Source of the DNA: Nocardioides daedukensis
Lineage (GTDB): Bacteria; Actinomycetota; Actinomycetes; Propionibacteriales; Nocardioidaceae
DNA length: 64,000 nucleotides
Assembly (NCBI RefSeq): GCF_013408415.1
Contig: NZ_JACCAA010000001.1
Span: 186,001-250,000 of the forward strand
Direction of reading: 5' to 3'
Shown here: positions 443-53,531 of the stretch, one piece after another
How the letters are laid out: each line of letters starts with the position of its first letter
Numbering within the stretch: the stretch's first letter is position 1
Translations under genes and position numbers: made by a program
The notes under the pieces: generated by a model
Database searches by the model: none
Told to the model about the DNA's origin: nothing
Seen by the model: the letters and a program-made list of their open reading frames with translations, nothing else

Positions 443-3424
443 ATGGATCGAGGCAAACTGCGGGTCTACCTTGGCGCGGCGCCGGGTGTGGGCAAGACGT
501 TCGCGATGCTGCAGGAGGGGCACCGCAGAGCAGATCGCGGCACCGACCTGGTGGTCGGATACGTCGAGAGCCACGCCCGCCCCACGACCACCCGAGCCGT
601 CCAGGGCCTCGAGGTCATCCCGCGCCGCACCCTGGTCTACAAGGGGACCAGCCAGGAGGAGATGGACCTCGACGCGATCCTGCTGCGATCACCATCGGTC
701 GTGCTGGTCGATGAGCTAGCGCACACCAATGTGCCCGGCAGTCGGCACGAGAAGCGGTGGCAGGACGTGCAGACGCTGCGTGAGGCCGGCATCGAGGTCA
801 TCTCGACCGTCAACATTCAGCACCTCGAATCGCTCAACGACGTCACCGAAGCCATCACCGGCATCCGACAGCGCGAAACGGTTCCCGACGACGTGGTCAG
901 AGCGGCCGATCAAATCGAACTGGTCGACATGAGCCCCCAGGCCCTACGCCGGCGCATGGCCCACGGCAACATCTACACCGCGGACAAGGTCGATGCCGCC
1001 CTGTCGCAGTACTTCCGCGAGGGGAACCTGACCGCGCTACGGGAGCTAGCGCTCCTGTGGTTGGCTGACCGGGTCGAAGAAGGAATGGACCGCTACCGGG
1101 AGAAGCACCAGATCGACTCAACCTGGGCCACCAGGGAACGCATCATCGTCCCGGTCAGCGGGGGACCGGAGTCCAGCACCCTCATGCGGAGGGCCTCCAG
1201 GATCGCCTCACGCGCTGCCGCAGGGGAATGGTCCGCGCTTTATGTTGCCCGCCGCGACGGTCTCACCGGTGTCTCCCCAGACGTCCTCACCGGGCTGCGC
1301 CAGAAGGCCGAGCAGCTCGGCGGCACCTTCCACACCGTCGTCAGCGACGACCCCGCCGAGGGAATCCTCGACTTTGCTCGCGCCGAAAATGCCTCTCAGG
1401 TCGTGGTCGGGGCCAGTCGACGCGGTCGGATCTCCGCACTGCTCCGGCCAGGGGTCGGGGAACGTGTCGTCGCCGCGTCAGGCGATATCGACGTCCACAT
1501 CGTCGCCCATGACTATTCTCGCGGGACGATGATCGGACCCCGTTCACCCGAGACGCTCAGTCGCCGGCGTCGCACGCTCGGCTACGTTTTCGGGGTCCTT
1601 ACTCCCACCCTAGTCAGTCTCCTGCTGTGGCTGACCCACCAGTGGCACGGCCTGACCACCGAAGCTCTGATCCTCATGGTCGTCGTGGTCGCCACCGCGC
1701 TTGTCGGGGGACTGCTGCCTGCGGTAATCGCCGCGCTGGCCAGCGGGATACTGCTCAATCTGTTCTTCGTGCCACCCTTGTACGTCCTGACCATCAACGA
1801 GCCCGAGAACGCGCTAGCAATACTTCTGTTCGTCCTCGTCGGGGTCGCCGTCGCCACGGTCGTCGACAACGCCGCGCGGCGAACCAAACAGGCCATCAAG
1901 GCGCGCGCCGAGGCCGACGCGCTCACCGTTCTCTCACACAGCCTCCTCAACGCCACCGACGATCCCCAAGGGCTTCTCTCGTCTGCATGCGAGCTGTTCA
2001 ATGCGCGCGGGGCTGCGATCATCCGCAGCAGCCGCACGGACACCGAGCCTGCCAGTGGCGGCAGCGGCGCCGACATGGGCAACGGGACCAACGGAGCCGA
2101 GACAGAGATCACAGCTCGCAGAGACGGCCCTGGTACTGGCGCCGAGCAGTCACACGGTGAGGGCGTCCCGCGGGTCGAGGTCCTCGCCAGCTGCGGAGAA
2201 CCGCCGCTCACAATCGAGGCCGCCGACATGGTCGCCGACATCGACGACGTCACGGTCCTGGCGCTGGCAGGCACAAAACTGCCCGCCTCGCAGCGAGGTC
2301 TGCTCAACGCATACGCTGCCTACGCCAGGGTGATGACAGAGCGTCGTGCCGCGACCGCGGCCGAGGTCGAACGACTCCGGCTCACTGAGGTCGACCGGAC
2401 CCGCACCGCTCTGCTGGCAGCGGTCTCCCACGACCTGCGCTCTCCACTCTCAGCGGTGAAGATGGCCGTCGACAGTCTGGGGGCACTCGACGTCACCTGG
2501 TCCGAGGAAGACAAGGCGGACTTCCTGGAGACCATCCGTGAAGCCACCGAGCGGCTCATCACCTTGGTCAACAACCTGCTGGACATGAGTCGCATCCACA
2601 CCGGATCGATCCGCGCCGCCGTCAGCGAGATCTCGCTGGCCCGCGCGGTCCGCAACAGCCTGGTCCCACTCGATGGCGGCGTCAGGATCCAGGTCGACAT
2701 CGACGAGGAGCTCGTAGTGCTGGCCGATCCAGGCCTGCTCGACCGGGTCTTGGCCAATATCGCGGAGAACGCCCTGAAGTACACACCCGACCAGGCGACG
2801 ATCACCATCGACGCCGCCCCCGTCGGGTCGGATAGGGTCGCTCTGCGAATTGCCGACACCGGGCCCGGCGTGCGAGATCGTGACCACGACAGGCTGTTCG
2901 CCCCCTTCCAACGCCTCGGTGACGTGCCCGGCCAAGACGGGGTAGGACTGGGGCTCGCGGTGGCTCGAGGACTCCTCGAGGCCATCGGTGGCACCGTGAC
3001 CACCGAGGACACACCCGGCGGCGGACTCACCTTTCTCCTGGAGCTACGCAGACCACCAGACCCACCACACGACCACCCATCAGAGATCGGCGAGGACCCT
3101 GCAGCAGCGCGTCTTAACCCAGAAGGTGGGGGATCGCAGGCGAACGTAGCGTTCCCGGACGCAGCAGACCCGGATGGAAGGGGGCCGGATGCGGAAGGGC
3201 TCAGCCAACACGCCTCTCATTCCAAGCAGCGGACCGAGTCAGACCGTGCTGCAGAAGAACGCGCCGGGGCAGGACCCGAACGAGACACTCTGTCGGGGCC
3301 AAAGAATCAGCAGACCCAGCATCCCGGGAAGAGCCAGGCTCAAAGGCATGTAGGACACGACAAGGCTGAGGGCAGAGCTTGCGACACGAGAAGCTCCCGG
3401 CCGCCGGAAGGAGAAACACCATGA
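443..3424 (+). CDS. kdpD: KdpD sensor histidine kinase
   Basis: Membrane sensor kinase for K+ limitation or turgor, partner of KdpE. The 993-residue protein starts with the KdpD sensor domain (about 1-210), with a Walker A GAAPGVGKT at residues 11-19 and VVLVDELAHTN as Walker B. A Usp-like domain (about 230-350), four membrane segments (about 390-490) and a divergent GAF-like region follow. The kinase core has the H-box HDLRSPLSAV (His about 663) and a GHKL ATPase ending near 865. I chose ATG 443, preceded by GAGGGA, over the GTG at 329, because the family begins at the GKLRVYLG segment. An acidic, low-complexity tail of about 125 residues after the ATPase domain is unusual. The stop overlaps the kdpE start as ATGA, implying coupled translation. 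The 277 bp between kdpC and this start hold no ORF I can support. Confidence 0.95.
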   Translation: MDRGKLRVYLGAAPGVGKTFAMLQEGHRRADRGTDLVVGYVESHARPTTTRAVQGLEVIPRRTLVYKGTSQEEMDLDAILLRSPSVVLVDELAHTNVPGSRHEKRWQDVQTLREAGIEVISTVNIQHLESLNDVTEAITGIRQRETVPDDVVRAADQIELVDMSPQALRRRMAHGNIYTADKVDAALSQYFREGNLTALRELALLWLADRVEEGMDRYREKHQIDSTWATRERIIVPVSGGPESSTLMRRASRIASRAAAGEWSALYVARRDGLTGVSPDVLTGLRQKAEQLGGTFHTVVSDDPAEGILDFARAENASQVVVGASRRGRISALLRPGVGERVVAASGDIDVHIVAHDYSRGTMIGPRSPETLSRRRRTLGYVFGVLTPTLVSLLLWLTHQWHGLTTEALILMVVVVATALVGGLLPAVIAALASGILLNLFFVPPLYVLTINEPENALAILLFVLVGVAVATVVDNAARRTKQAIKARAEADALTVLSHSLLNATDDPQGLLSSACELFNARGAAIIRSSRTDTEPASGGSGADMGNGTNGAETEITARRDGPGTGAEQSHGEGVPRVEVLASCGEPPLTIEAADMVADIDDVTVLALAGTKLPASQRGLLNAYAAYARVMTERRAATAAEVERLRLTEVDRTRTALLAAVSHDLRSPLSAVKMAVDSLGALDVTWSEEDKADFLETIREATERLITLVNNLLDMSRIHTGSIRAAVSEISLARAVRNSLVPLDGGVRIQVDIDEELVVLADPGLLDRVLANIAENALKYTPDQATITIDAAPVGSDRVALRIADTGPGVRDRDHDRLFAPFQRLGDVPGQDGVGLGLAVARGLLEAIGGTVTTEDTPGGGLTFLLELRRPPDPPHDHPSEIGEDPAAARLNPEGGGSQANVAFPDAADPDGRGPDAEGLSQHASHSKQRTESDRAAEERAGAGPERDTLSGPKNQQTQHPGKSQAQRHVGHDKAEGRACDTRSSRPPEGETP

Positions 3425-4104
3425 CCTTCGTGCTCGTTGTCGACGACGATCCGGCAATTCGCCGCACCCTGTCGGTCAACCTCCGGGCGCGAGGCTATGA
3501 GGTCGAGACCGCCGGTGATGGCCGCTCGGCGCTGCAAATAGTCGGCGAACGAATGCCCGACGCGATCCTGCTCGACCTCGGTCTCCCTGACGTCGACGGG
3601 GTCGCCGTGCTAGCCAAGCTGCGCACCTTCACCGCCGTCCCGGTCGTGGTTGTTTCGGCGCGTACCGAGTCCGACGACAAGGTCGAAGCTCTCGACCTCG
3701 GAGCGGACGACTACGTCAGCAAGCCGTTCTCACTCGAGGAGCTGCTCGCACGCGTGAGGGTGGCAACCCGCCGCAGCGCCGTCGCATCACCGTCACTGCG
3801 CCTCGAGATCGACGATCTGGTCCTAGACGTCACCGACTCTCGAGCTAGCCGCGACGGAGAGGTCATCCATCTGACCCCGACCGAGTGGAAGCTCGTGGAG
3901 TACCTCGCCCGCCGCCGCGGTCGGCTGGTCCGACAATCTGAGCTCCTCCAGGCGGTGTGGGGCCCAAGCTACGAGCGCCACAGCAACTACCTCCGCGTTC
4001 ACCTGTCAGCGATACGACACAAGCTCGAACGCGACCCTGCCAACCCCACATTGTTCATCACCGAGCCTGGAATGGGCTACCGGTTCGCTCCCGAGACGAG
4101 CTAA
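3421..4104 (+). CDS. kdpE: KdpE response regulator (OmpR/PhoB family)
   Basis: Transcriptional activator of the kdpFABC pump genes, phosphorylated by KdpD. The 227-residue protein has a receiver domain with acidic pocket DDD (8-10), phospho-acceptor Asp52 in LLDLGLPDVDG and the conserved Lys in SKPFSLEELLARV. A winged-helix DNA-binding domain (about 130-225) follows, with LTPTEWKLVEYLARRRGRLV. ATG 3421 overlaps the kdpD stop by 4 bp. An upstream in-frame ATG at 3379 lies inside kdpD and would add a non-conserved leader. The length is typical. After the stop, gene density collapses until the insertion elements. Confidence 0.95.
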   Translation: MTFVLVVDDDPAIRRTLSVNLRARGYEVETAGDGRSALQIVGERMPDAILLDLGLPDVDGVAVLAKLRTFTAVPVVVVSARTESDDKVEALDLGADDYVSKPFSLEELLARVRVATRRSAVASPSLRLEIDDLVLDVTDSRASRDGEVIHLTPTEWKLVEYLARRRGRLVRQSELLQAVWGPSYERHSNYLRVHLSAIRHKLERDPANPTLFITEPGMGYRFAPETS

Positions 4105-6621: not shown

Positions 6622-6682
6622 CATTCTGAAGACCTCGGCGGCTTTCTTCGCGGCGGAGCTCGACCGCCCCACGAACAAGTAG
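6622..6682 (+). pseudogene. IS3 transposase OrfA, 3' part (disrupted)
   Basis: Begins with the right-hand copy of the CAT duplication and continues the orfA frame as ILKTSAAFFAAELDRPTNK to TAG at 6680-6682. The segment is typical of IS3 OrfA C-termini. The overlap with the orfB frame (shifted -1) contains GGCTTTCTTC, a plausible slippage region. OrfAB synthesis is impossible while IS30 separates the two halves. Confidence 0.88.
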
Positions 6683-7656
6683 TCGCCTACATCGACGCCC
6701 ACCGCCACGACGTGGTCGATGGGCGCGAGGTCGGGGTCGAGCCGATCTGCGCGGTGTTGAAGAACGCCGGCGTGCAGATCGCCCCGAGCAGCTACTACGC
6801 CGCCAAGACCAGGCCTGTCTCGGCACGCGCGATCCGCGACGCCGACCTCGTCGAGGACATCAAGACAGCCCACAAGGCCAACCTCGGCGTCTACGGCGCA
6901 AGGAAGATCCACGCCGAGCTCAACCGCGAGGGCATCCGCGTCGCCCGCTGCACCGTCGAGCGCCTGATGAGGGCCGAGGGCCTGCGCGGGATCCCGCGGG
7001 AGAAGTCCCGCAAGACCACCATCGGTGACGGTGCTGAGACCGAGCAACCCGAGGATCTGGTGAAGCGGAAGTTCGTCGCGAGCGCACCGAACCAGCTCTG
7101 GGTCGCGGACCTGACCTACGTCAGAACGCACGCGGGCTGGACCTACGTCGCGTTCGTCCTCGACGTCTTCAGCCGGATGATCGTGGGCTGGCAGGTGTCC
7201 ACCTCACTGCGCACCGACCTCGCACTCGACGCCCTCGACATGGGCCTGTGGAACCGGCAACGAGCGGGTCGGGACGTCACCGGTCTGACGCATCATTCGG
7301 ACCGTGGAGTCCAGTATCGAGCGATTCGATACACCGAGCGGCTCGCCGAAGCAGAGGCCGTCGCATCGGTCGGATCCAAGGGCGATTCCTATGACAACGC
7401 GATGGCCGAGGCACTCAACTCGCTGTTCAAGGCCGAGTGCATCCGGAACCCGGTGATGCGTCCGAAGGGCGGCTGGAAGAGCGTCGGTGATGTCGAGATC
7501 GCGGTCGCTGAATACGTCGACTGGTTCAACCACCGACGCCTTCACGGCGAGATCGGCCTCGTCCCGCCCGCCGAGTTCGAGGCCAGCCACTGGGCCAAGC
7601 ACAACGTCACCGACTACGTTGAAACACCTGTCCCGACCGGGGCTCGTTCCAAGTAA
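6625..7656 (+). CDS. IS3-family transposase OrfB (catalytic part)
   Basis: Integrase-type catalytic subunit. It has the HTH_21 region (YGARKIHAELNREGIRVARC) followed by an rve domain: LWVADLTYVRTHAGWTYVAF (Asp), LTHHSDRGVQY (Asp) and GSKGDSYDNAMAEALNSLFK (Glu). The DDE triad is intact. IS3 normally makes OrfB only as a -1 frameshift fusion with OrfA. The ATG available at 6598 lies inside the IS30 right end and would add a foreign leader. The protein therefore has no natural start here, and the left boundary is approximate. It is likely silenced, or supplied in trans by another copy. Confidence 0.85.
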   Translation, partial: SEDLGGFLRGGARPPHEQVVAYIDAHRHDVVDGREVGVEPICAVLKNAGVQIAPSSYYAAKTRPVSARAIRDADLVEDIKTAHKANLGVYGARKIHAELNREGIRVARCTVERLMRAEGLRGIPREKSRKTTIGDGAETEQPEDLVKRKFVASAPNQLWVADLTYVRTHAGWTYVAFVLDVFSRMIVGWQVSTSLRTDLALDALDMGLWNRQRAGRDVTGLTHHSDRGVQYRAIRYTERLAEAEAVASVGSKGDSYDNAMAEALNSLFKAECIRNPVMRPKGGWKSVGDVEIAVAEYVDWFNHRRLHGEIGLVPPAEFEASHWAKHNVTDYVETPVPTGARSK

Positions 7657-20611: not shown

Positions 20612-20614
20612 CCT

Positions 20615-20723
20615 CGACCCGGCAGTTGTTGACACATTCAGGCGTCAATAACTGCCGACTCGACGACGTTAGGGTCAACAACTGCCGGCTCGGCAACGTC
20701 AGGCGTCAGCAACTGCCGGGTCG
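20615..20723. repeat. Array 1 of the 19-bp repeat (4 copies: F R R R)
   Basis: The forward copy at 20615-20633 is CGACCCGGCAGTTGTTGAC. Reverse copies lie at 20644-20662 (three mismatches), 20674-20692 (one) and 20705-20723 (one). Starts are 29, 30 and 31 bp apart. The array separates two convergent genes. The last copy overlaps the pepA 3' end and encodes its terminal residues. Copies 1 and 2 can pair across a 10-nt loop. Confidence 0.93.
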
Positions 20724-22225
20724 GCGTGGGCGGCGACGAACTCCACCAGTGTCGCCACACCGAAACCGGTGCCACCGGACGGCGTGAAGCCGTGCGGACC
20801 GCCGGGGTTGAAGCCCGGGCCGGCGATGTCGAGGTGGCCCCAGGGCAGGCCGTCAGTGAACTCGCGCAGGAAGGCCGCGGCGAAGAGCCCGCCGCCCCAA
20901 CGCACCCAGTCGTGCTGGGCGATGTCGGCGACCTTGCTGCTGCGCACGCGGGAGTGCATCTCCTCGGGGATTGGCATGTGCCACAGCGCCTCACCGGTGG
21001 TGCTCGCCGCGGACTTGAGCCCGGCGACCACGTCATCGGTGCCCAGCACGCCGGCAACCCTCTCGCCGAGCGCGACGACCATCGCACCGGTCAGCGTGGC
21101 GATGTCAACGATCGCGTCCGGCTTCTCCTCGGCGGCCATCACCAGTGCGTCGGCGAGGATCAGTCGACCCTCTGCGTCGGTGTTGGTCATCTCGACTGTG
21201 GTGCCGCCACGGATGGTGAGCACGTCACCGGGGCGCATGGCCGAGCCGGAGATCATGTTCTCCGCCATCGGGGCCCACGCGGTGACCTTCACCGGCAGCC
21301 CCAGCTTGGCGATCAGGAAGATGGACTGGATCACCGAAGCGGCACCGGCCATGTCCTCCTTCATCGAGATCATCGAGTTGGCCGGCTTGATCGTGTAGCC
21401 GCCGGAGTCATAGGTGACGCCCTTGCCGACCAGGGCGACGTGCTTGGTCGCACCCGCCGGCGACCAGGTCAGCTTGACCAGGCGCGGGGGAGCATCCGAA
21501 CCGCCGCCGACGGCCAGGATGCCGCCGCAGCCCTCGTCCGCGAGCTGCTGCTCGTCCCAGACCTTGATGTCGAGCTTCGGGGCACCCTTGCCCTTGGTGA
21601 GCTTGGCGTGCGCGTCGACGACCGCGTCGGCGAAGACGGGAGGGTTGAGGTCGCTGGCGGGCAGGTTCACCCACTGGCGGGTCGCGTTGACGGCCTCGGC
21701 GACCAGCTGGGCGTGTTCGAATGCCTGCGTGGCCCCACCCTGGCGGGCGATCGGGGAGAGCACCACGATCTCGCTCGGTGCGGTGCTCGACGGCTTGCTG
21801 TCGCGCTTGTAGTCGGTGAACGCATAGGAGCCGAGCAGGAAGCCCTCGGCCACGGCAGCCACCAGCTCGGGGGAGTCCGCAGGCAGGGCCAACGACACGG
21901 ACGCGGCGTTGGTCAGCGAGCGGGCGACCACACCGGCGGCACGGCGTACAGCGACTGCGTCGACGTCCTTGGCGGCGCCGAGCCCGACGACGACGAGCAG
22001 CGGCGAGTTGATCACGTCCGCGGTGGGAATCTTCGCGACCTCGCCGGCCTTGCCGGAGAAGCCGAGGCTCTGCAGCAGCGGGCGGAACTTGCGGCCCCAG
22101 GCCTCGCTGACGTCCTCACCTCCCGCCGCAGCGATCAACCCCTTGGGGGTCGAGGCGACACCGATGATCACGGCGTCGGCGCGGGTCTTGGCAGGGCTGG
22201 CGGAGCGGAGGGTGTACGTCGTCAC
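20699..22225 (-). CDS. pepA: Leucyl aminopeptidase (M17)
   Basis: Cytosolic metallo-aminopeptidase of 508 residues. The C-terminal catalytic domain has GKGVTYDSGGYTIKPANS (Lys and Asp ligands), KEDMAGAA and the signature NTDAEGRLILADAL. The N-terminal domain is typical. GTG 22225 was chosen; the frame is open to 22270 but that would run into divergent gcvT (ATG 22258). The last residues ADPAVADA are encoded by a copy of the 19-bp repeat, so the C-terminus looks added or replaced. Confidence 0.95.
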   Translation of the reverse strand: MTTYTLRSASPAKTRADAVIIGVASTPKGLIAAAGGEDVSEAWGRKFRPLLQSLGFSGKAGEVAKIPTADVINSPLLVVVGLGAAKDVDAVAVRRAAGVVARSLTNAASVSLALPADSPELVAAVAEGFLLGSYAFTDYKRDSKPSSTAPSEIVVLSPIARQGGATQAFEHAQLVAEAVNATRQWVNLPASDLNPPVFADAVVDAHAKLTKGKGAPKLDIKVWDEQQLADEGCGGILAVGGGSDAPPRLVKLTWSPAGATKHVALVGKGVTYDSGGYTIKPANSMISMKEDMAGAASVIQSIFLIAKLGLPVKVTAWAPMAENMISGSAMRPGDVLTIRGGTTVEMTNTDAEGRLILADALVMAAEEKPDAIVDIATLTGAMVVALGERVAGVLGTDDVVAGLKSAASTTGEALWHMPIPEEMHSRVRSSKVADIAQHDWVRWGGGLFAAAFLREFTDGLPWGHLDIAGPGFNPGGPHGFTPSGGTGFGVATLVEFVAAHADPAVADA

Positions 22226-30701: not shown

Positions 30702-31522
30702 ACGATGCCGCGCGAGCGGCGACTGTCGGTCGGACCGAGCGCCTGCCGGCCGAGGTGCTGCTCCTGTGCTGTGACTGGCTGGAGCAGGTGCATCGGTTGG
30801 CGCCGGGCCTGGTCACTGGGCTGCACCTACGCGGTGGCATCGGCTTCGGCGAATATGTCCGCGGCAAGAGCGACGTGGACTTCGTGGCGCTGCTCGCGCA
30901 TCGCCCCTCGTCGACTGAGCTCGACGCGCTGGAGGACGCCCACCTGGCTGTGGCCGAGCTCCATCACGAGCTCTTCTTCGACGGCGCGCACCTGCTGGCC
31001 AGTGACCTGGCGGCCGACCCGCAGCTGTGTCCGGACGTGCCGTGCACCCTGCACCGGATCTTCGAGCCCGAGGCCCGGCGCGACATCAGCCCGGTGACGT
31101 GGCACGAGCTGGCCCACCACGGCGTCACCGTGCACGGGACCGACCTCTCAGCGCTGCAGGTCTGGACCTCGCAGCAAGCCCTGCTCGACTTCACCCGGGA
31201 CAACCTCGACACCTATTGGCGCGAGCATGCCGAGGCGCTTCCCAGGTTCCCCGGTGAGGCGGCCACCGAGGCCAACTGTGAATGGTGCGTCCCCGGAGTG
31301 GCCCGCCTGCACCACCTGCTGGTGACGGGGGAGCAGACCTCGAAGTCGGCTGCGCTTCGGTGGGGGCTGGAGTTCTATCCCTCGCGGTTCCACCCGGTCC
31401 TGGCCGAGGCGCTGCGGATCCGTGAGGACCCGGGCGCGCCCTCGGGTTATCCGGATCCACTCCAACGGGGACGCGACGTGGCCGCGTTCACGGCGTACGT
31501 CGTCACCACCGGGACGGCCTGA
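30698..31522 (+). CDS. Nucleotidyltransferase (aminoglycoside adenylyltransferase-like)
   Basis: A 274-residue protein starting at GTG. The N-terminal domain has the nucleotidyltransferase pattern RGGIGFGEYVRGKSDVDFVA (paired Asp). The C-terminal helical part (GVARLHHLLVTGEQTSKSAA, LEFYPSRFHPVLAEALRIRE) resembles the AadA/DUF4111 C-domain. It might transfer AMP to small molecules; the real substrate is unknown. The stop codon lies inside the first unit of a 23-bp tandem repeat. Confidence 0.78.
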   Translation: MNDAARAATVGRTERLPAEVLLLCCDWLEQVHRLAPGLVTGLHLRGGIGFGEYVRGKSDVDFVALLAHRPSSTELDALEDAHLAVAELHHELFFDGAHLLASDLAADPQLCPDVPCTLHRIFEPEARRDISPVTWHELAHHGVTVHGTDLSALQVWTSQQALLDFTRDNLDTYWREHAEALPRFPGEAATEANCEWCVPGVARLHHLLVTGEQTSKSAALRWGLEFYPSRFHPVLAEALRIREDPGAPSGYPDPLQRGRDVAAFTAYVVTTGTA

Positions 31523-31610
31523 TCAGCACCGCCGGCACGGCCTGATCGATACCGCCGGCACGGCCTGATCGATACCGCCGGCACGGCCTGATCGATACCG
31601 CCGGGACGGC
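31514..31610. repeat. 23-bp tandem repeat at a gene 3' end
   Basis: Units starting ACGGCCTGATC at 31514, 31537, 31560 and 31583, with a fragment at 31606. The first unit differs by two bases and contains the stop codon of the upstream gene; the others are near identical. The run fills the gap before thyA, ending 16 bp before its GTG. Confidence 0.93.
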
Positions 31611-32436: not shown

Positions 32437-33395
32437 GCGCTGGCCGACGCATCGTGATGGTCGCCGCGTTCGCCCGGAACAGGGTGATCGGCAACAAGGG
32501 TGAGATCCCGTGGCACATCCCCGAGGACTTCGCGCACTTCAAACGGACCACGCTGGGCCACACCCTGGTGATGGGGCGGGCGACGTGGGACTCGATCGGG
32601 CGGCCGTTGCCCGGGCGTACGACGATCGTGGTCACCCGGGATCGTTCCTGGTCGACTCCGTGGACGCCCGGGACCTCGACCGAATCCGGCCTCTCTCGCA
32701 GCGAGGAGCGGGCGAACGACCGGCTGGACGATGGGGCCCAGCCGCACGTGTACATCGCGCACTCGGTGCAGGCCGCCATCGACCTGGCCGCCACGCTGCC
32801 CGGCGACACCATGATCGCCGGGGGGACCCAGGTCTATGAGCAGGCGATGGCCCTGGCCACGCACCAGGTGCTGACCGAGGTCGACCTCGAGCCCGAGGGC
32901 GATGCGCACTATCCGTACCTGCCCGACCAGGAGTGGGCCGAGATCTCGCGTGAGGTCCACGACGGCTACGCTTTCGTCGAGTGGGAGCGGGTTGCTCCCG
33001 CGCCGACCATCGACGTCTCGGCGGTGGCCCTGGTCCGCGACGGCAGCGTGCTGACCGTGCGCAAGCGCGGCACGGACCGGTTCATGCTGGTCGGCGGCAA
33101 GCCCGATCCGGGGGAGTCCGCCGCCGCTGCGGGACGACGCGAGTTCGCCGAAGAGGTGTCCCTCTCACTGACATCGCACGAGCCCCTGGGCTCGTTCACC
33201 GCGCTGGCCGCCAACGAGCCCGGTCACCTGGTCCGCTCCGAGGTCTTCCTCGGTCATGCCACCGGTGAGCCGGAGGTCGCTGCGGAGATCGAGGAGCTGC
33301 GCTGGACCTCGCTGGATGAGGGCGCGGTGTACGACGACCTTGCGCCGTTGCTCGAGCATCTCCTTCCCCTCCTGCGCCGACCCGGCACTTGTTGA
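32433..33395 (+). CDS. folA: Fusion: dihydrofolate reductase + Nudix hydrolase
   Basis: A 320-residue protein. Residues 1 to about 185 are DHFR, which regenerates tetrahydrofolate: [40 protein letters not shown] and [12 protein letters not shown]. An insertion of about 30 residues (about 73-104, [20 protein letters not shown]) sits after VVTRDRSW. Residues about 191-315 are a Nudix domain with [20 protein letters not shown], one deviation from the Nudix box (Ser for the last Gly). The last residues RRPGTC and the stop come from the first 19-bp repeat of array 2. Cleanup of damaged or excess nucleotides is a possible Nudix role. Confidence 0.92.
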
Positions 33396-33520
33396 CGCCG
33401 TAATTCGTCGACCCGTCAGTTGTTGACGTGCTGATTCGTCGACCCGGCAGTTGTTGACCGGGGACCAGATGTCAACAACTGCCGGGTCGACGAGGTGGAG
33501 TGTCAACAACTGCCGGGTCG
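33378..33520. repeat. Array 2 of the 19-bp repeat (5 copies: F F F R R, exact 31-bp period)
   Basis: Forward copies at 33378-33396 (one mismatch), 33409-33427 (one) and 33440-33458 (perfect). Reverse copies at 33471-33489 and 33502-33520 (both perfect). All starts are exactly 31 bp apart with 12-nt spacers. The third and fourth copies form a perfect 19-bp stem over a 12-nt loop. The array lies between the convergent folA-Nudix and DUF3099 genes. The first copy supplies the folA stop. Confidence 0.96.
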
Positions 33521-33538
33521 ACGGGGTGGGGCGGGTGG

Positions 33539-46157: not shown

Positions 46158-49100
46158 GCACCTTCGGCCGTGCGGGGTCCAGGTCGAGCACCTCGTCCAT
46201 CGCCTCGAGACCGACGTGGTCATGGGTGATCCAGACAACGGTGCGACCCGAGCTCGCGGCCAGCAGGTCGCGGGCGACCCCGCGCGCGGTGGCGGTGTCG
46301 AGATGGGCGGTGGGCTCGTCGAGCACGAGCACCTCGCGGGCGGCCAGGATGGCACGGGCCAGACCGATCCTGGCCCGCTCACCGCCCGAGACGTCGACGC
46401 CGCCGTCACCGATCCGGGTGTCGGCGCCGTGGGGCAACGCGTCGATCCAGTCACCCAGGTGTGCCCCGCGCAGGGCCAGCTCGACGGCGAGATCATCGGC
46501 CTCGGGCGCGGCCAACCGCACGTTCTCGGTCACCGTCGATCCGAAGAGATGCGGGTCGTCGGTGAGCAGCCCGACCACACGACGTACGTCGTCCGCGGCG
46601 AGCTCGCCGACCGGTGTGCCGTTGACGGTGTGGGTGCCCTCGGTGAGGTCGAGGAAGCGCGTGATCGTCAGTGCCAGGCTCGACTTCCCGGACCCGGAGG
46701 GGCCGGTGATACCGATGTGGCGCCCGGGCGTCAGGTCCAGGTCGATGCCGTGGAATGCGGGCTCGCCGGGAGTCCACTCGGCACCCGCTCCGGTGAGCTG
46801 GATCGTGTGCGGAGCCCGGGGGAGCGGTGCCGGATGGCTCGGGTCGGTGACCGCGGGCTCGGTGCCCAACAGGTCGGCCAGCCTGCGCTCGGCGGCACGA
46901 GTCCGCACCCGCAGTGCGCCCGCGTCGGCCAGCGGCGCGGTCACCTCGGCGAGGGCGAGGGGGAGCAGCATCAGCAGCGCGAGCATCGGGCCGGAGACGC
47001 TGCCCTCGTCGAGGCCAGGGGCGCCCAGGGCGGCGATCGCCAGGACGCCGAGTCCCGCGAGCAGGGTGGCGAGACCACGACCGATCGCGGTGGCCGTGCC
47101 CGACGCGGTGCTGGCGCGGGCCAGGTTGCTTCCGGACGCGTCCACGTCGTCGAGGGCACGGCCATCCGCCTGCCACAGGACGAGCTGGCGGGCGTCGGTG
47201 ACCAGCGAGGTCGTACGCCGTCCCAGCTCGCCGCGGGCGGCCACGAACCGGGCCTCGTTGCGGCGCGCGCCGAGCCAGCCGGTGAAGCCGGCGAGCAGGC
47301 CTCCAGCCAGGCAGACCACGAGCACCACCGGAGCGGTCGTTGGCAGGACCAGCCATGCGGTGAGCACGGCGAGGACGGTGACGCCGAGCCAGGTGGCGAC
47401 CGGGAGCCGCACCCGCAGCCGGTCGTCGAGCTCGGCGTCGACGTCGTCGACGATCCCGGTCAGCAGGTCGCCGTGGCGGCCGAGTCGGGCGGGGACGAGC
47501 GGGATCAGGCGGGCGAAGACGTCCGCGCGCCGCTCGGCCAGGACGCTCAGTGCGACGTCGTGACCGAGCAGCCGCTCGACGTAGTGCAGGGCCGGGCGGG
47601 CCAGTCCGAAGGTCCGGACCCCGACGATCGCGACGGTCAGCATCAGCACCGGAGGCTGCTCGGCCGCGCGGGCGATCAGCCAGCCGGCGGTCGCGGTCAG
47701 CGCGACGCCGGAGATCGAGGCGAGCGAGCCCAGGACGACGGCAAGAGCCCACCGCCAGCGAGGCGGTCGCGCAGGTGATGTCGGTGCGACCTCGCCGCGA
47801 ACACTCGCCGAGTCGGCAGTTGTTGACGCGAGCTCCCGCACCGAGTCGGCAGTTGTTGACGCCAGCACATGCGCCGAGTCGGCAGTTGTTGACGCCGGCA
47901 CTCGCCGACCCGGCAGTTGTTGACGCCCCTGGGCGTCAACAACTGCCGACTCGGCGGAGGCGGAGAGGTCGATGACGGTGTCGGCGGCGTCGACGACGGC
48001 CTGTCGGTGCGCCACCACGATCACGGTGCTGGTCTCGGCGAGCAGGCGCATCACGTCGATCATGATCCGCTCGGAGTCGGCATCGAGGTGCGCTGTCGGC
48101 TCGTCGAGCAGCACGTAGGGGCGCTCGGCCAGGACCACGCGAGCGAGGGCGAGGCGGGCCCGCTGACCCGCAGAGAGTCCGAGGCCATCCTCGCCGAGCG
48201 GCGTCTCGATCCCGTGGGGGAGGTCCGCGACGTGGCTGGCCAGGTCGACTGCGGCGAGCGCGGCCCACACCTCGGCATCGTCGGCTCCGGGTCGACCGAT
48301 CCGCACGTTGGCCGCGATCGTGTCGGGGACCAACCACGGGCGCTGGGGCAGGTGCGCGACCGCCTTGCGCCACGACGTACGGTCGATGTCTGCGTGATCG
48401 CGATTGCCGACGGCGACCAGGCCCGAGGCCCGCGGGAGCTCGCCCAGAAGCACCTGCAGCAGCGTGCTCTTGCCGCACCCGGACGGGCCGACGATCGCCG
48501 TGATGCCACCCGCAGGAATGCGTGCGGACAGGGCCTCGACGACTGGATCGCGGTCTGGCCAGGCCACGGAGAGGTCGATCAGGTTGATCGGCCGGGCGAC
48601 ATTCTCGGGACCACAAGAAGTGCCGGTTCGACCATCCAGAACTGCAGGTTCGCGACGCAAGAACTGCTGGTTCGTCAGCTCGTGGATGGCTTCGAAGGTG
48701 GCGGTGCCCTCGGCGGCGGAGTGGAACTCGGCGCCGACCCGGCGCAGCGGCCAGTAGGCCTCGGGAGCCAGCAGCAGCACGGTCAACGCCACCTGGAACT
48801 CGATGCCGCCGGAGGCGAGTCGCAGCCCGACCACGACGGCGACCAACGCCACCGAGATCGTGGCGATCAGCTCGAGTGCGGCAGAGGAGGCGAAGGCCAG
48901 CTTGAGGGTCTCGCCGGTGCGCTTGCGATAGGTCTCGGTGACGGTGCGGATCTTCGGCACCTGGGCCTCGGCCCGGCGGTGGGCCACCAGTGTCGGCAGG
49001 CCGCGCACCACGTCGAGGAAGTGGCCGGCCAGGTCGCCCAACGCGCGCCACTGCCGATCGGCGGACTCCTTGGTGGTCAACCCGATCAAGATCGCGAAGA

Positions 49101-53451: not shown

Positions 53452-53464
53452 CCTGGCCGCCCAA

Positions 53465-53531
53465 CGTCGCCGCCCAGGCGTCGCCGCCCAGGCGTCGCCG
53501 CCCAGGCGTCGCCGCCCGGACGTCGACGCCC
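53465..53531. repeat. 14-bp tandem repeat
   Basis: CGTCGCCGCCCAGG is repeated at 53465, 53479 and 53493, then diverging copies start at 53507 and 53521. It begins 13 bp after the protease stop, in the gap between convergent genes. Confidence 0.92.

Follow-up and report, generated by a model that had tools for sequence, protein, structure and literature searches.

Phased tandem repeats at gene ends in Nocardioides daedukensis and their translated copies in protein linkers, including that of a fused CydD-CydC exporter

In Nocardioides daedukensis, the gene encoding the fused thiol-reductant ABC exporter CydDC carries an in-frame array of short DNA repeats, which settled in a pre-existing linker; the fusion of the CydD and CydC halves did not arise from it. 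The array belongs to a group of phased tandem repeats found in this genome, as in several congeners, at the 3' ends of transcription units. We favor, at a probability only a little above even, an explanation in which the repeats, multiplied by a copying process and tolerated within linkers, are phased sites for a putative DNA-binding protein. The starting point was a stretch of 64,000 nucleotides (contig NZ_JACCAA010000001.1, positions 186,001 to 250,000), here referred to as the window; its repeat features are listed in Table 1.

The cydDC reading frame is open over its whole length. In the product, NCBIfam models assign residues 16-550 to CydD and 615-1132 to CydC, both far above cut-off, and the array corresponds to residues ~553-603, i.e., it is found precisely at the joint of the two halves, where it makes up ~50 of the residues that separate them. 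The motif GGCAGTTGTTGACGC occurs there five times, at 47815, 47848, 47881 and 47912 on the plus strand and at 47947 on the minus strand, and the peptide over the array reads ...ESAVVDAQGRQQLPGRRVPASTTADSAHVLASTTADSVRELASTTADSA.... Copies 4 and 5 pair with each other in a 26-nt stem. A preliminary description had placed the array in frame within cydDC and listed its peptides, and both statements are confirmed by the open frame and its translation; the location given there (47809-47953) was also correct, except that the 22-bp cores together extend slightly further, over 47806-47956. The unit had further been described as free of stop codons in the used frame in either orientation. This is true of the frames used in cydDC but does not extend to every frame: one of the six contains a TGA (TGT TGA C), so that not every insertion would be harmless.

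Table 1. Positions of cydDC and of the repeat features in the window.
Feature	Position	Strand	Remarks
Family A array, + - - -, gene 3' region	20612..20726		
Family A array, + + + - -, between convergent genes	33375..33523		
cydDC, fused thiol-reductant ABC exporter CydD-CydC, 1162 aa	46126..49614	-	open frame; NCBIfam
Family A copy 1	47806..47827	+	antisense to cydDC; translated ASTTADS
Family A copy 2	47839..47860	+	33 bp from copy 1; ASTTADS
Family A copy 3	47872..47893	+	33 bp from copy 2; ASTTADS
Family A copy 4	47903..47924	+	31 bp from copy 3; other frame, QQLPG
Family A copy 5, inverted	47935..47956	-	sense to cydDC; ESAVVDA
Family B array, three 22-bp units	48609..48674	-	TRF period 22; CydD TMD-NBD linker, residues ~314-335

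The extent of the array between both halves (~50 residues) is in line with the earlier proposal that the fused exporter may owe its linker to an insertion, and with a fusion created by that insertion. Linker length would then vary in steps of 19-33 bp among relatives, and strains without the array would have separate halves or shorter linkers. When the whole CydDC protein was used as a query against 58 congeners, 21 full-length matches were found besides that of the genome itself, 19 of them without any stop, and tblastn located CydD and CydC halves in one frame in further species. At least 19 species of the genus thus have an uninterrupted CydD-CydC frame from which the repeat is absent. Congener linkers, measured between fixed anchors, are 65-121 aa long compared with 98 aa here, without steps of the proposed size; they are rich in Ala and Pro, unconserved and in some cases contain other repeats. 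In the nearest relative, G003 (66% identical), the linker is 110 aa long and has no family-A copy at this spot. Because linkers are long and variable also in congeners without the array, the cydDC array lies in a linker that already had its length and its freedom to vary, and the fusion-by-insertion proposal, contradicted by the fused congeners, was rejected as having hardly any probability. In two other species, G015 and G001, the same linker contains 21-bp repeats in frame that match their own genome-wide variants, which indicates that the site has been repeatedly occupied rather than created. The Ala/Pro-rich, variable linkers of the relatives, some with repeats of other kinds, could also be taken to reflect a low-complexity protein repeat of the ordinary kind, expanded at the protein level. 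This explanation was likewise rejected, and we give it next to no weight: it is contradicted by the presence of the DNA unit genome-wide outside genes, in non-coding copies, and by the translation of the copies in different frames and from both strands, one linker copy being inverted.

The repeat found in cydDC, referred to as family A, has a conserved core of 22 bp, CGYCGASYCGGCAGTTGTTGAC. In the window, 14 matches to the motif with at most two mismatches were found, as compared to 0.21 expected from shuffles, and these form three arrays, i.e., that in cydDC and two others (Table 1). The 3.81-Mb genome contains 59 exact copies of the family-A 15-mer, which is absent from 58 congeners, and 173 copies of a looser 13-mer, found 0-2 times in each of 215 congeners. 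Among 84,980 named species genomes the unit gave only two single chance matches, in unrelated taxa, and viral contigs gave one single match; the motif is private to this genome. Near-identical 24-mers are found at scattered sites, and in total ~57 arrays with 193 units were counted, which are lower bounds obtained from pattern searches and retrieved stretches of the genome. The window also contains other tandem repeats, namely 4.6 copies of the 23-bp unit ACCGCCGGCACGGCCTGATCGAT that are 92% alike and unrelated to families A and B (31505-31610), as well as 5.5 copies of the 14-bp unit GCCGCCCAGGCGTC (53456-53531). At 6640-6786 a match to the Rfam ALIL pseudoknot, unexpected outside IS elements, scores barely above the gathering score (51.1 compared to 50).

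Neighboring family-A units in the same direction are spaced by 31 bp in 50 cases and by 28-33 bp in all; beyond this range direct spacings are 41-44, 51-53 or 62 bp, with nothing between, and the distances between converging (+ to -) units are 33-37, 44-46, 55 or 57 bp. The spacings of 31, 42, 52 and 62 bp are steps of ~10.5 bp, i.e., helical steps. In a periodicity test that used one value per array and only spacings >34 bp, the non-modal spacings rejected a uniform null (0 of 100,000 random sets were as periodic), and part of this pattern could stem from duplication history rather than selection. A second family, B, has the unit CGTCGAACCTGCAGTTGTTGCG and is arranged in ~30 direct runs in the genome, with 2-8 units per run spaced by exactly 22 bp; the sequence AACCTGCASTTGTTG has 53 exact copies here and none in 97 congeners. 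Although adjacent family-B units differ at 20-25% of bases, the 22-bp spacing is kept in 196 of the 202 pairs from this genome and G003, and six deviate.

According to gene calls from our own codon model, used in place of a curated annotation, runs are typically located downstream of the gene with which they share their sense (73:18 for family A, 28:2 for family B and 27:5 in G003) and start at a median of 9, 3 and 2 nt, respectively, after the upstream stop codon. Most arrays are found between convergent genes. Among the likely transcription-unit ends of the stretches sampled, 48-69% are convergent in any case, and convergence is not specially favored once operon-internal gaps are set aside. 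Plus copies of family A precede minus copies in every array save one double (+-+-), an order that follows from each convergent gene bringing its own run. The cydDC copies depart from the 3'-end rule, being mostly antisense and inside a gene. Two distant inverted family-B arrays (L096, L098) were considered as transposon ends, which was rejected because each array belongs to a separate gene, whose stop codon it adjoins. At L098, on either side of an IS256-like transposase ORF (2367-3614, identified by reading alone), a family-B array directly follows the stop codon of a neighboring glycosyltransferase-like gene.

For counts across genomes lag-specific self-matching was used, a generic tandem-repeat count having been dropped as too noisy. 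The G003 unit, CTGCGCGAACGGGCAGTTCTTG, is spaced strictly by 22 bp, and arrays occupy the same gene ends in both genomes at L101/L157 (both sides), L096/L148, L097/L144, L084/L150 and at cydD, where a 22-bp array built from the G003 variant occupies the place in the CydD TMD-NBD linker that corresponds to the family-B array of Table 1. Among the retrieved loci compared, some arrays are not common to the two species, which implies gain and loss. The L101 locus has an array in a third species, G181, as well, and in all three species (L101/L157/L112) the array follows the TGA and precedes the hairpin of an intrinsic terminator; it is therefore part of the transcript there, and the terminator is a separate element. 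One family-A element (L046/L216) is shared with G003, with the outer 13 bp and the flank identical and the core different. At a further G003 locus (L141, 676170-676240) a third 22-bp variant, CGAACCGCGGGTTGTTGAG, is found where the present genome has a family-A array. More distant counterparts include the variant CGAATCTGCAGTTGTGG in G236 and G015, as well as 22-bp arrays with the unrelated unit TCGAGTTGGGCCTTCCTCACGG in G055, which have the same converging distance of 45-46 bp and at one locus start 2 nt after the TGA. Judged from these sequences, the geometry and place of the arrays are kept between species while the consensus changes. Such look-alike arrays, each with its own spelling, suggest a factor that may read them.

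Family-A arrays are found in frame in three genes beyond cydDC, in agreement with the preliminary description, which held that the element can enter genes without truncating them. In a cobaltochelatase-like protein (L082) the array separates the AAA lid from the VWA domain, and its spacing of 30 bp is divisible by three. The array of an E2 acyltransferase (L063) directly follows the lipoyl domain, and that of an acyl-CoA ligase (L074) is found within the AMP-binding region. The translated frames mostly yield E-S/P-A/S-V-V-D or A-S-T-T/S-A/D-D/G-S. In the cobaltochelatases of congeners the linkers are long, variable and without the array. One of these linkers (L176) has a repeated peptide of its own, DDSTGES/SQTSVES, which suggests that this linker gathers repeats.

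The observations may be viewed as the outcome of a selfish or neutral dispersed repeat, similar to RPEs, MITEs or REPs, that spreads through a putative copying activity and survives where it is harmless, i.e., at gene 3' ends and in disordered linkers, the spacing then reflecting the mode of copying. We regard this as a possible though rather unlikely account. It would explain the many near-identical 24-mers at scattered sites, the restriction of family A to one genome, gain and loss relative to G003, and the four genes with in-frame insertions, comparable to those of Rickettsia RPEs (PMC10969869). However, the genome has no Y1_Tnp/RAYT gene (the PF01797 profile gave no match there and was positive in E. 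coli and four other controls), neither clean empty sites nor target duplications were observed, the spacing of family B is nearly indel-free despite the divergence of the units, and the same positions are occupied in a sister species with a changed consensus. That the arrays act as RNA structures, i.e., as bidirectional terminators or mRNA-stabilizing hairpins at convergent gene ends, is improbable. Most arrays do lie between convergent genes and converging arrays form very stable folds (z -6 to -10), but this strong folding results from their inverted arrangement only: many arrays run in one direction and are unstructured (z -1.5 to 0.3, no better than shuffled). In addition, a normal terminator lies beyond the array at L101/L157/L112, loop-length steps of ~10 bp are not expected of RNA hairpins, and no Rfam family above its gathering score was found on the arrays of the window or at ten array loci.

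In the explanation based on phased protein-binding sites, the units would be recognized by a candidate sequence-specific protein bound on one face of the helix, as the tight spacing would imply, and the specificity of this protein may drift between lineages. The near-identical 24-mers at scattered sites call for a copying process as well, by which units and arrays would also multiply; the analysis found neither a binding factor nor a copying enzyme. In cydDC and the three other genes an array presumably landed in, or grew from, the DNA of a flexible linker, where the frame used gives small hydrophilic residues; the array is translated and presumably tolerated, given that the cydDC linker was already long and variable. 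A broader, more speculative possibility, to which we attach less than an even chance by a clear measure, is a genus-level system in which a putative binder decorates 3' ends via phased 22-bp arrays: rapid coevolution of binder and sites would give each species its own "dialect", with positions and geometry kept, and stray arrays would become translated linkers.

Several known repeat classes share some of these features. REP/BIME elements are short repeats found outside genes as inverted pairs and clusters, often between convergent genes. In the present case, no Y1_Tnp/RAYT gene is found, many arrays are purely direct, and the units share the orientation of the upstream gene and have helical spacing; unlike REP/RAYT repeats, they are not imperfect palindromes, the unit being palindromic in its CCGnnnCGG part only. 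MIRUs are actinobacterial tandem units of fixed orientation beside stop codons, but these are longer, coupled between operon genes and encode small ORFs, whereas the arrays described here are found at transcription-unit ends. The DNA uptake sequence dialects of Neisseriaceae are species-specific short motifs, often in inverted pairs at gene ends; here copies are far fewer and the 22-bp units form phased tandem arrays. With respect to MITEs, inverted pairs are common, and no target duplication was identified, the flanks being too diverged from G003 save at the element L046/L216. In a comparison of repeats and spacers, the arrays differ from those of CRISPR in that the repeats vary and invert, with spacers of 0-9 or 20 nt.

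Bacterial interspersed repeats are usually viewed as palindromes left by transposases. In the literature searched, the exact family-A motif was not found, nor were helically phased arrays described that directly follow stop codons and have a consensus private to each species (most subscription journals lay outside this search). In-frame dispersed repeats as such are already known from Rickettsia, where the palindromic RPEs are found in frame in unrelated coding genes and are translated (PMC10969869). The insertion in unrelated genes (cydDC, L082, L063 and L074) resembles that of RPEs; however, an RPE is a single element of ~100-150 bp with a common sequence, whereas here 22-bp units vary in number and order, and the arrays are overwhelmingly located right after stop codons. 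The spacing, the position at stop codons, the common sense with the upstream gene and the retention of array positions under a changed consensus suggest that something reads the DNA. These pointers make the arrays a testable case, either of a binder that coevolves with its sites or of copying without a known enzyme, and the cydDC array and its three counterparts provide four natural cases of non-coding repeats adopted into proteins in frame.
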